Assembly (NCBI GenBank): GCA_903813345.2
Contig: CAIIXF020000011.1
Coordinates: forward strand, 23,483,754 to 23,547,753
From: Owenia fusiformis
Taxonomy: Eukaryota; Annelida; Polychaeta; Sabellida; Oweniidae
Length of the DNA: 64,000 bases
Direction of reading: 5' to 3'
A program made the translations under genes and the position numbers. Below are positions 10,301 to 64,000 of the stretch, piece after piece (positions within the stretch are counted from its first letter, which is position 1; each line of letters opens with the position of its first letter). Below the pieces are notes generated by a model that had not been told where the DNA came from, ran no database searches, and was given only the letters and a program-made list of their open reading frames with translations.

Positions 10301-12778
10301 TTTTGGCATCCCACAAGATGGCACTGTTGTCAACAGAACCAGAAAGAATGTAGCGACTGTCCTTGGACCAGGACAGATCATAAACATCTTCTAAGTGACC
10401 CCTGGAATGAAATAATCAATGAAATCAGGAGACAAGGGGGTTTCATTAGCAGCAGGCAACAGGCGATTTTCACCAGTTGTTTTCACAAAATTGCCTGTTG
10501 ATTTAAGGACTTTTCAACTTCTCCATGTTAAATTTATGATTTCCATGAATTTTGCCTGTTGTTTTCATTTATTCAGCCAGTTGTGAAAAATTCCAGTGAA
10601 ATCCTTGAGACAGTATTATCACCATCTGATGGTTTACATTTGAGGATGACACATTAGTTTGGAATTGTTGAGAACTTGGGTGGCTTTCTTTTCTTTGTTT
10701 ACCTAAATTAACAACTCCTTCCCTTAATATCTTTAAAGATGACAACATCTCCTGGCTCGCCTTAATATCTCGAAAGATGACCATATCTTCATGTTTACCT
10801 TTATACCTTTAAAGTTGCTCATATCCCCTTGCTTAACTTAATACTTTTAAAGTGGACCATATCAATTTCAGCATTAAGAAGTGTAAATTCAGTTCAAAGC
10901 TTCTATAAAGGGAGTCCCACTTATAGATTTTTAAGATCCCCTACGTTTCAAGAGGAATATCAGCTGAAATAATGTTCAACCAGGGGGTTTCTTTGGAGAA
11001 AATAAAAATATATGTTAGTCTTGATGAAATATCCAAACTTGAATATATTTTGACACTGGTCCATGATTGTTGAATGGCCTCTGCACTAAATGTTGCACCT
11101 TTAAATAAATATGTAAGCTCACACTTTGAAAGTGGATCATATCTCATTACTTAACTTAACATCCTGACAAAGGACCATGTATCCTTGTGTACCTGTAGAA
11201 TGAACTATATTTGTTTGCTTACCTTAACACCTTAAAAGTGGACCATATCTCCTTGTTCTCTGCCTCCTCTTCTTGGAATATATTGTTGACGGGTACGAGG
11301 GTGTCATTTAATTTCCACAGCATGATGTAAGAATCATCTCCTCCCGAGGCCAACAATTCACCTACAAATATATTATACATGTACATTGTATACCTTTGTT
11401 ACTGTTGAATATGACATGCAGTTTTAGTTGACATTGAAATAATTAACAGGTTTGCCATCATACAGTGGACTTATTCTCATGTTAAACACAACAGAAATGG
11501 ATCGTAATTTTGGGGACCTAACTATTTAAACATACAAAATGCTCATTTACGTGCCTCCCTTTTAAATTGATCTATCCTAAAGTGAGGTACATTTCTCAAT
11601 AAAGATCTACACTTAAGAATTCCTTTGTCAAGTTTTTTCTAGTTTTAGGATTTTCAAGTCATTAGAGTCCATTTCATTGTTTAACTGTGTCAGTAAAAGC
11701 TAAAAAATAAGAAATCAAAATATCATTTTACAATAATATATTCCTATTGTACACGAATGACATTTATATATCTTGGATTGCTTCTAGTTTGGCTTATAAA
11801 GTGTGTGGCCTCTTATATTTGGATGCTTCTCTGCCATGCTATTTTCAATAAGATTAACATGGCTGAAATTCTTCAAATTACAAGATGGCACAGGCTTATT
11901 GCTCAAAAAACTAAAAAATCTGAAATATACAAATGTCATTTATGTACATTATGAATATACTTTTCCATATATTATTGCACAATGGTCTCCCAATTTCTTA
12001 TTTTTGCCGTACTACTGACGCAATGAAGCAGTGAAATGGACTCTAGAATAGAAGCAAGGTATTCACTTACCATCAGGAGAGAAACGTACAACATTCACAG
12101 CCCGGTTGTGACGTGTTAGAGTTGCAAGGAATTCTGGGGTTGGTTTGCCTTCTTTGTCTTCAACAATATTCCACATCTGAAAATATTTTCTAGTATTTTG
12201 TTCCAGAATAACAAACATTTTGGTGAAAGGTGCAACAACAAAGGCCTTTGATTGATAAAAAGCAAATCTAGTTTAATTGCAAAGTATTTCAACCTACATG
12301 ATAGCCTTGGCAGTTTTCCCAACTGTTATTTATGATCAAGGTATAAGATGTTAGAAGAAAGGGGGGGGGGGTTGTCCAAGAAGGTACTGTACTTCTACTT
12401 AATTTGGTGCTACTTATTTTAGCGGATTTACTAATATGTACAATTGGCGGCTACTTAATTTGGCAGACTTGCAATATCACAGTACACTATTTTGGTACTA
12501 ATTTACATGGTGCTAGATTTGCTAGATTTACCGGGGCCCAAATTAAGTAGAAGTCAATAATTTTTGTAGATTGTCAACATGAATGACAATGCCTCCTCCA
12601 ACTCTGTTGTTGATTTCAACAACTACATGTAATAATAAAAAGCAACTAAACTGACCATGATATTCTTATCTGTCCCACATGTGGCCATACGACGCATGTT
12701 CCCTTTAAGGTATTGGAAATCTATACTGTAAATTGGATCTCTTCCATGCCATGATATCTCTGGAGTCACAAGTTTCAT
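2742..12778 (-). CDS. CHAF1B: Chromatin assembly factor 1 subunit B (CAF-1 p60), complete, 12 exons
   Basis: This is the p60 WD40 subunit of the CAF-1 histone chaperone, which deposits H3-H4 on newly replicated DNA in the nucleus. Exons in gene order: 12656-12778, 12071-12176, 11223-11361, 10298-10401, 10005-10101, 8732-8992, 8085-8234, 6955-7080, 4831-4981, 3955-4364, 3582-3777, 2742-3212. All junctions are GT-AG, phases agree, and the total is 2,334 nt (777 codons plus stop). The start ATG at 12778 opens [18 protein letters not shown], matching the family N-terminus. Family-typical stretches follow: [76 protein letters not shown] and [15 protein letters not shown], together forming the WD40 propeller. 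The protein is longer than vertebrate p60 (about 560 residues) because of an expanded tail. Introns contain several mobile elements. Identification is by conserved motifs and is strong. Confidence 0.95.
5095..5934. mobile_element. About 840-bp foldback element in CHAF1B intron 8
   Basis: The left arm (about 5095-5500) is the imperfect reverse complement of the right arm (about 5525-5934); the arms are about 400 bp and meet near 5510. The 20-mer GTCCGCTGTGACGGAGCATG starts near 5119 and recurs, whole or with few changes, near 5484, and in reverse complement near 5525 and 5890. Each arm is therefore itself bounded by the same motif. Outer ends share TGGTATCGAA. No coding capacity is seen. As an intronic insertion, it would form a very long hairpin in CHAF1B pre-mRNA. 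Confidence 0.75.
6074..6261. mobile_element. 188-bp MITE, CAGT-ended family, copy 1
   Basis: The inverted ends are CAGTGAAGCCTGTAAAGTGG on the left and CAGTAAAACCTGTCTAAGTG on the right (reverse complemented). Internal subrepeats GTGGAACACCTC occur several times. The left flank is TA. Related, more decayed copies lie at 17198-17365 and 28604-28854. These ends resemble pogo/Tigger-type Tc1/mariner elements. Confidence 0.65.
6738..6872. mobile_element. 135-bp hairpin (foldback) in CHAF1B intron 8
   Basis: The sequence from TATGTAC at 6738 to GTACATA at 6872 folds on itself with arms of about 60 bp. Both arms contain TTTTGGATACAG and GTTTATCC followed by GGGAAATAT-TGTATCTC. The loop is GC-rich (CGGTCCCTGCGGTCC). 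A separate box, TGGGTTTGGGGTAGATAT, occurs just outside in inverted orientation (about 6718) and again at about 6402. This is probably a foldback transposon; a small-RNA hairpin is the alternative. Confidence 0.55.
7370..7732. mobile_element. 363-bp non-autonomous element with 9-bp TSD and promoter-like core, copy 1
   Basis: The element begins TACCCTGCG and ends CAAAGGGTA (short inverted end TACCCT). It is flanked by a perfect 9-bp duplication GTAGTCAAA (7361-7369 and 7733-7741). A second copy in opposite orientation lies at 58113-58481 with its own 9-bp duplication. Inside, in the plus orientation, are a GC box CCCCGCCCCC (7421), a CCAAT (7497), an ATTGG (7557), a consensus CRE TGACGTCA (7581), a TATA-like ATATATA (7601) and another ATTGG (7640). 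That is the order of a Pol II promoter. It lies in CHAF1B intron 7, antisense to the gene. No ORF of note. A 9-bp duplication is typical of Mutator-like elements, but the family is unassigned. Confidence 0.75.
8235..8400. repeat. Minisatellite of about 20 bp abutting the CHAF1B exon 7 acceptor
   Basis: Degenerate repeats of TAACATACAAGTACATTGTG start within two bases of the exon 7 splice acceptor and run for about 165 bp, decaying with distance. The exon itself is not duplicated. On the minus strand each unit carries GTATGTTAC, resembling the sequence just before the real acceptor AG. Confidence 0.6.
8993..10004. other. CHAF1B intron 5, nothing recognised
   Basis: This AT-rich intron lies between exon 6 (8732-8992) and exon 5 (10005-10101). 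The box GTCGATATG occurs at about 9085 and 9891 in the same orientation, which may reflect an old insertion. No coding region or clear terminal repeats were found. Confidence 0.4.
10711..11260. repeat. Degenerate array of the CHAF1B exon 3 donor edge
   Basis: CHAF1B exon 3 ends (plus-strand view) at ACCTTAACACCTTAAAAGTG followed by GACCATATCTCC. Diverged copies of this 35-45 bp edge, including the TTA(A/C)CTTAA splice-donor side, recur at about 10720, 10758, 10797, 10838, 11127 and 11150 in the adjacent intron. Copies keep the order CTTAA, then a spacer, then AAAGTGGACCATATC. They are much more diverged than the POLQ arrays, so they look older. Confidence 0.6.
12389..12556. mobile_element. 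Small MITE in CHAF1B intron 1
   Basis: Inverted ends ACTTCTACTTAATTTGG (12391) and CCAAATTAAGTAGAAGT (ending 12554) bound about 165 bp. The interior repeats short boxes of the TACTTAATTTGG type. There is no coding capacity. A poly-G run lies just to its left at about 12361. Confidence 0.6.
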
Positions 12779-13149
12779 GGTTGCAGTTTTCACGATTTCT
12801 TGAATGCCTTGGTGAGTTGACTAACAGCTGCAACGACCTTCAAGCAGACAAACATTGCATCAACAAAGTTAAAAATTAAAGGAACCGAATATGATGAGAA
12901 TCACTAATGGCAAATGAATTATAATGTGCTTTTATAAGAAAACTCAACATCACTTGATCTTCTCATTTTTCAAGAAAAATTGAAATGTTTTGGAAGTTTA
13001 AAAAAACGATTGTACCTCTACCAATTCACTATTTTATAAACTTACGCTATATAATAATGCCTTTAATTTTCCCACTTCCAGGGATACCACGACTCTTCCT
13101 ATCTGGAGTCGATAAATAGCAGTATTTGTCAAAATCTTGAAGATAATTT

Positions 13150-13230
13150 AGCAGAGTTACAAATTTTACCGCCAAATGGCTATTTCCGGTCAGCCTCGCT
13201 TTGACGAATGACGTCAACTAGCGGAAATTT
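13150..13230. promoter_or_regulatory. Putative divergent CHAF1B/POLQ promoter with E2F, ETS and CRE-like sites
   Basis: Within 60 bp lie an E2F-type site (TTTGGCGG on the minus strand, 13169-13176), an ETS core ATTTCCGG (13182-13189), a consensus CRE TGACGTCA (13209-13216) and a second partial E2F-like TTTCCGC (minus strand, 13221-13227). The cluster is about 390 bp upstream of the CHAF1B start codon. POLQ exon 1 is preceded by a splice-acceptor-like TTGTTGTAG, so POLQ probably has an untranslated first exon nearer this site. Sites are seen; shared promoter function is inferred from the head-to-head arrangement. Confidence 0.5.
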
Positions 13231-13625
13231 TAAACATTTCCAAAATTTGCTCACTAAAAAGGTAAAAATCTTCTAAAATAGAATAATGTTATCAGAATGG
13301 TATATTTCTATGAATACATGAAGTGTATGTCGATTTTATGTAGCATCCGCAGAGGCATAAGATATATCTATGCTAGTCTATTGATAATTATAAAGTGGCC
13401 ACAGAATCTTTTTTTTTCAATTTTTGCAATTTTGCCATTTTTGACTTGCAAGCATGAATATGATGGAATATCACTATGGGCATCTTCAGACTACAATATA
13501 CCGCCGACCTTGAACATGATGAATGATAATAATTTAAGTTCACACCACTAAGACAGACGAAAGGGTGGCTTCTTCAATGACTCCACTCTTTCTCATTCAT
13601 CGGTAACATGTCAGTCTAATCAGTC

Positions 13626-14599
13626 ATGAGAAGCAACTACACCTTCAACAATTAATTGAAACTCAAAAGCCAGATGTCATCATAGGCTGTGAGACTCACT
13701 TGGACAACACCGTCGACAGCAAATGGATATTCGGTCAAGACTACCTTAGACAACCTCCATACAGGAAAGACCGAAAGAAAGGTGCTGGCGGCGTCCTTAT
13801 CGCAGTCAAAAGTGACTTCATATCAGTCGGTTATGAAGCGACAGCTGATTGCGAAATCATATGGTTCAAAGCATCTCTATCAAATGGGGACATACTGTTA
13901 AGATCCTTCTATCGTCAACCAAACAACTATACTGGTGCTTTGGACTCGCTCCAAACATCCCTCGATAAACTATATGCTATTGGTAATACACATATGAAGA
14001 ACATCTTCCTATGTGGTGACTTCAACTTACCAGACATCGATTGGGAGAATGGAACTATAAGGCCTAATTCTCAATATTCTAATGATCTTAATGAGAAGAT
14101 GATTACAATAACTGATGATCATGGCCTAACCCAACAAGTCAAGGAAACAACAAGACAAAATAACATCCTTGACTTAGTATTCACTACATGCCCAAACCTC
14201 GCAGAAAGAATCTCGGTGGTTTCAGGCATGAGTGATCATGAGGCAGTCCTATGTGATATAAACCTGAAAATGAAAATTCAGAAAAAGAAGCCTCGTAAGG
14301 TCCACATATACAAGCAGGCAGAATGGACTGGACTTAAAGAGACTCTATGATCTAAGTTCAGCGAATTCAAAGAGAGCTCTGAAAGTAGATCAGTTGAAGG
14401 CAACTGGGCCTCCTTCAAATCAATCAATGAGCATATTCCAAGTAAAACTCTTAGTGGGAAATTCAAAGTGCCCTGGATTACCACCAGGATACTGAGAATG
14501 ATCCAACACAAACAAAGACGATATAATGTTGCCAAACGTTCAAATGAACCTCATCATTGGCATAAGTACAAATCACTACGGAAATTAATCCATATATGA
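13626..14599 (+). pseudogene. Non-LTR retrotransposon fragment, endonuclease domain
   Basis: The frame reads through an apurinic-like endonuclease domain of Jockey/CR1-type elements: QKPDVIIGCETHLD, GAGGVLIAV, FLCGDFNLPDIDW, LDLVFTT and SGMSDHEAVL. Conserved residues visible are the ETHL glutamate, GDFN, and SDH near the end. A TGA at 14348-14350 interrupts the frame, which then continues in the same frame (PWITTRILRMIQ, WHKYKSLRKL) until about 14599. That part is the usual linker before the reverse transcriptase, which is absent. The copy is dead and truncated at its 3' side. It lies between CHAF1B and POLQ, probably in the first POLQ intron. Confidence 0.85.
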
Positions 14600-14853
14600 A
14601 ATTGTCCCCATATGGAACTTTTTCAATTTTAACCATGATTTATGTAACCAGGATTATTGAATGTTGTATATAGCACAAGCTTTATTATTTGCAAATCTAA
14701 TTTGTATCAGAACATATAGTCCAAAAAAATAAATACTAATTCTAAATACCTGTACATGTCTATCTTGATGAATAAAAGAAAACTTTCAAAGTAAACTGAA
14801 GCCGTAAGCCTGTATCTGTATTGTAATTGTACAATGTATTTTATTGTTGTAGG

Positions 14854-64000
<49,147 letters not shown>

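Follow-up and report, generated by a model that had tools for sequence, protein, structure and literature searches.

Tandem arrays whose unit crosses a splice site recur in the genome of Owenia fusiformis, and long-unit arrays sampled at exons of four gene families lie across exon edges at a higher rate than expected from random placement. We read these exon-edge arrays as "mirage" minisatellites, that is, as splice-shielded tandem duplications that are probably neutral passengers, and give this reading a probability of roughly 0.75. Mirages were previously known from single amphioxus genes and were linked to intron gain. Their presence at about 1 in 20 sampled exons makes what was anecdotal a recurrent class of mutation that can be measured. 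The anatomy of exon-edge repeats has already been described in amphioxus and human; what is new is the lineage, the scale, and the measured excess.

Arrays in POLQ and neighboring genes

The window, i.e. the whole analyzed stretch of 64,000 nt (contig CAIIXF020000011.1, positions 23,483,754 to 23,547,753), contained seven arrays with units of at least 50 bp as detected by TRF, with nested larger periods of the same array counted once. Stacking of the copies against the splice sites revealed that five of these seven arrays straddle a splice site of POLQ. The gene was identified by alignments to the solved human and fish POLQ (PDB queries), which cover the array exons of 32270, 35354, and 60096; in three POLQ exons, the alignment to the POLQ structure is carried by the intact copy.

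All five arrays are located on the plus strand. The acceptor type is represented by 32270-33153 (127 bp × 7), 37389-37824 (75 bp × 5.8), and 60096-61525 (182 bp × 7.9). The intact exon of the first of these, at about 33045-33222, consists of the last copy and its continuation and aligns to human POLQ. The intact exons of the other two lie at about 37795-37857 and 61394-61606, and the latter aligns to the POLQ polymerase region. The donor type is represented by 35354-36114 (127 bp × 6), whose first copy contains the end of the intact exon (35308-35458), which aligns to human POLQ, and by 40671-41392 (113 bp × 6.3) with an intact exon at about 40584-40721. In the array at 40671, the lengths of G runs vary between the copies. 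The preliminary description had stated that the intact exon is the last copy when the unit carries the acceptor and the first copy when it carries the donor, and this was found for 32270, 37389, and 60096 and for 35354 and 40671, respectively. Its statement that one intact exon always remains is also true, though forced by geometry. POLQ edge arrays are present as described, but their number is five and not four according to TRF and the stacked copies.

Boundary-crossing arrays had been claimed for six exons, including those of two further genes, and here the outcome was divided: the claim stood for the POLQ exons and for CHAF1B exon 3 but not for PAN-like gene A. CHAF1B, assigned by its Pfam CAF1B/HIR1 beta-propeller, is located on the minus strand, and the donor edge of its exon 3 together with six decayed copies spans 10718-11222 with a unit of about 36-38 bp. 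The 3' end of the exon is at about 11222, and the six copies follow downstream in 11186-10718. Their local scores were 28-50, compared to 21 (95%) and 29 (maximum) for 200 letter shuffles, so that one copy (score 28) falls under the shuffle maximum. The 21-bp array of PAN-like gene A (23504-23662), which had been thought to cross the boundary of exon 2, is wholly intronic. It begins about 86 bp past the exon-2 donor, ends 65 bp ahead of the next acceptor, and showed no likeness to either exon edge by eye.

The remaining two long-unit arrays of the window, 24385-24801 and 28639-28817, lie between located POLQ exons. The former consists of three copies of a 138-bp unit. This unit carries ACAGGGTGT and ACACCCTGT, which by eye form an inverted repeat, and is possibly a small transposon in tandem. 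At 18673-18861, a 42-bp unit is repeated 4.5 times in frame within an open frame of the minus strand, which amounts to 14 residues per repeat. Three long open frames of 520-529 aa that closely resemble one another, plus a shorter copy of 149 aa, occupy 45623-55387 on the minus strand; they are apparently recently duplicated genes within a long POLQ intron.

Frequency of edge-crossing arrays outside the window

The window was unable to decide whether chance accounts for these arrays because the finding had been picked by eye there. We searched the same genome with the profile models Pkinase, Kinesin, Myosin_head, and SNF2; these searches give the best candidates only. The main sample was built from 238 exon matches, which form 234 clusters; with 500 bp of flank added at either end, it comprised 174 loci and 248,740 bp without any N. 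The matches were transcribed by hand from the search results, and the sample, drawn from four gene families, is not random. We dropped rows that contained in-frame stops or exceeded about 430 bp in match length, repeated myosin rows, and 17 of 18 repeated kinesin rows on C2 (one was kept), and at least six kinase rows that meet these rules are absent from the sample (C1:44541991, C3:14943295, C3:15002426, C3:15084687, C5:12656030, and C8:18542076). A Pkinase pair at C10:2256896/2257074 had no TRF array of period ≥25 and was left out of the counts. To infer exon edges, we combined the profile match with the open frame and with a small matrix of splice-site scores trained on POLQ; out of 238 each, no more than 204 acceptors and 205 donors scored above 3. 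For the null expectation, each array was collapsed to one unit, which was then placed randomly within its locus.

TRF detected 37 merged arrays with a period of at least 25 in the main sample. Twelve of them crossed the inferred edge of the matched exon, while 4.8 were expected (P 0.0011). For units of at least 50 bp, a threshold that was picked after the first sample had been seen, 11 of 19 arrays crossed an edge versus 3.9 expected (P 0.0003). Without L074 and L080, two loci that bring several search rows, the values were 9 of 17 versus 3.3 (P 0.0018). Units shorter than 50 bp showed no clear excess in the main sample (1 of 18 versus 0.94 expected). Nested periods were present in L051, L059, L062, L101, and L132, and the test was rerun with the smallest listed period as the unit. 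This resulted in 10 of 16 versus 3.1 expected for the long class of the main sample (P 0.0001) and 2 of 21 versus 1.1 for units below 50 bp. The preference for splice boundaries over random placement, which the preliminary description had put forward for the window, is supported for long units at loci outside it.

A further set of 18 matches with one in-frame stop was picked by hand, with up to 1000 bp on each side (38,453 bp). Five of nine arrays with units of at least 50 bp crossed the matched edge versus 0.83 expected (P 0.0005); L188 (122 × 5.8) was entered as non-crossing. With the smallest period as the unit, the long units of this set gave 5 of 7 versus 0.68 expected and the short ones 0 of 9 versus 0.24. 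A stop in the match could favor loci that bear arrays, and the rate per exon was higher in this set (5/18) than in the main sample (12 arrays in 234 clusters). For these reasons, our claim rests on the main sample. Two of the eight long-unit arrays counted there as non-crossing (L003 and L129) cross, by eye, the acceptor of the next, unmatched kinesin exon, and inspection showed that another of the eight is the second block of an already counted array; the P values do not include these corrections.

Structure of the repeat units and their possible origin

We compared the units of 24 arrays, namely 5 from POLQ, 14 from the main sample, and 5 from the further set. Sixteen units carry an acceptor and eight a donor. 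The median unit length is 89 bp, and the length is divisible by 3 in 8 of 24 cases. The intronic part measures 6-62 bp (median 27) and the exonic part 4-139 bp (median 51.5). The notion that the arrays start at exon edges is inexact, as their units straddle the edges. The exonic part is larger than the intronic part in 19 of 24 units, and the mean intronic share is 0.35 versus 0.5 (P 0.005 against a uniform distribution). Outside POLQ, the intronic share is below one half in 16 of 19 units (P 0.011). For the largest intronic part (62 bp), a post hoc test gave P 1e-4. In many arrays, the copies differ by substitutions; at 35354 and 37389, they are identical or almost so. A 119-bp array in an SNF2 gene has 2.1 copies in L076 and 3.9 copies in the related L194, about 29 kb apart (paralogs or haplotypes). 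At L086, the intron directly upstream of the array resembles by eye the exon directly downstream, which suggests that an older, longer duplication may underlie the present array. GC-richness was considered as a driver and dismissed: exons are richer in GC than their flanks (0.418 versus 0.334; sampled genome 0.350), but the printed intronic arrays, few as they are, were not clearly GC-rich.

According to the reading that we prefer, a unit made of one splice site, a piece of the exon, and a short piece of the intron would be duplicated in tandem. With the splice site inside the unit, the additional copies fall on the intron side of the single intact exon. The coding sequence would be unaffected provided that the spliceosome picks the outermost correct site, as it presumably does. 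After the first duplication, the copy number would probably shift by unequal exchange or slippage, and the copies would be carried along as neutral sequence. We infer that in this genome the first duplication happens more readily in exon DNA or at exon edges. In simple terms, breakpoints would be commoner in or next to exons, edge-crossing duplications would survive, and exon-internal ones would be purged by selection. More tentatively, and with the odds in our view somewhat against it, exon ends in this lineage may be genuine mutational hot spots at which tandem duplications of about 50-180 bp arise. About one exon in 20 would then carry a mirage at any time, and spare splice sites and pieces of exons would be constantly available throughout the genome as raw material for new introns or alternative exons.

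The same arrays could be due to chance and geometry, if duplications arose anywhere in genes, those inside exons were lost, and those crossing an edge were merely noticed. The choice of the finding by an earlier reader for its arrays would fit with this, and so would the short units with no clear excess. We nevertheless consider it unlikely. When exon-internal placements were excluded, 11 of 19 arrays still crossed an edge versus 4.3 expected in the main sample (P 0.0008) and 5 of 9 versus 0.88 in the further set; both sets pooled gave 16 of 28 versus 5.2 (P 3e-6). This result demonstrates that selection against exon-internal copies together with uniform placement is insufficient, and it upholds the earlier argument that geometry accounts for the survival of such duplications yet not for their excess. 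Expansion of these stretches by long-read assembly is very improbable. One amphioxus array is reported to appear aberrantly assembled in the draft genome (PMC3087553), but artefacts should not prefer splice sites. The substitutions between copies of many arrays, the arrays at 35354 and 37389 aside, and the recurrence of the L076 array in the related gene copy L194 with another copy number also argue against an artefact.

The extra copies might instead serve regulation, with decoy splice sites that compete with the true site and tune expression via nonsense-mediated decay. In the first 19 arrays, 93 of 99 decoy copies have kept their AG or GT, and use of an upstream acceptor would, as judged by eye, run into stop codons in several arrays. 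The loss of decoy splice sites was, however, not clearly below background (0.030 per base versus 0.049 elsewhere in the core, with six events), and the sites look unselected. Since the copy number also turns over between L076 and L194 and the affected genes belong to unrelated families, we regard a regulatory role as improbable. Even less credible is that end joining by pol theta, which had been suggested speculatively for the window, makes the duplications and that its own gene is the preferred victim. POLQ alone has five arrays, and its rate of 5 in 21 listed exons is above both sample rates (binomial P 0.004 and 0.011), albeit in a gene picked for its arrays. Arrays are scattered across many genes, however, and their hosts include members of the kinesin, myosin, SNF2-type, and kinase families from many chromosomes. 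As POLQ is one host among many, no reason is left to blame pol theta. Templated junction inserts were considered as a signature of this enzyme and rejected: as judged by eye, four of the five inspected apparent fillers (32270, 60096, L074, and L080) look like flanking intron sequence that has diverged, the exception being 14 bp per junction at 37389 without a clear match to either flank.

Relation to known exon-edge repeats

The original mirage paper reportedly dealt with the Adh gene. Two amphioxus studies describe mirage minisatellites in the globins BflGb6 and BflGb9, in Adh3, and in TnC, with similar repeats in PGBD5; their units are about 10-160 bp long, the copy number is variable, and AG or GT is present in many repeats (PMC3087553, PMC3902484). 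The likeness to the arrays analyzed here is close: a tandem unit spans the exon-intron boundary at the acceptor or donor, one authentic exon is left, and the splice signals are kept in many repeats. The units reach 182 bp here, beyond this amphioxus range. The genomes also differ: 19 chromosomes in B. floridae and 41.3% GC in B. belcheri contrast with 12 large contigs and a sampled GC of 35% in the genome analyzed here, in which a mitochondrial search gave no COX1 match. Abundance and excess were measured here from genome sequence, in a genome other than amphioxus. In our literature search of openly licensed papers, as far as it went, we came across no use of the word mirage for repeats of this kind outside amphioxus.

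In human genes within segmental duplications, tandem repeats of variable copy number at exon-intron boundaries were linked to new introns, and that study counts 27 cases in which introns of recently duplicated genes were modified, many of them accompanied by alternative transcripts (PMC2812944). In contrast, the arrays reported here reside in single conserved genes, have an existing splice site in every unit, and were characterized at the genomic level. Intron gain by tandem genomic duplication (AGGT model) assumes that an exon-internal AGGT is duplicated and a new intron is made (PMC3443670). Both cases have in common that tandem duplication of exon DNA is tolerated via splicing. The units found here, however, hold an existing splice site and intron DNA and not an exonic AGGT that serves as new donor and acceptor, as the AGGT model requires (PMC3443670).

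The species offers direct tests of the origin of splice-site duplications, of the choice among tandem splice sites, and of the proposed route of intron birth. For annotation, the arrays are a warning, as edge arrays can yield false exons. Profile listings alone reveal a regular spacing: on C2, all but one of the steps between 18 kinesin matches measure 159 bp, and those between five SNF2 matches measure about 137 bp. The 27 rows of PF00133 showed no regularly spaced repeats, although short exon pieces would escape such a check. The kinesin exon edge at L080 (C2:23265859-23270305), repeated about 18 times at 159 bp, has the highest copy number among the edge-crossing arrays analyzed here. Twelve myosin-head rows at C9:37986009-37994334 were considered as an array, rejected for their irregular spacing, and left out of all counts; this twelvefold occurrence of the same myosin-head stretch looks like a large alternative-exon set of muscle myosin.
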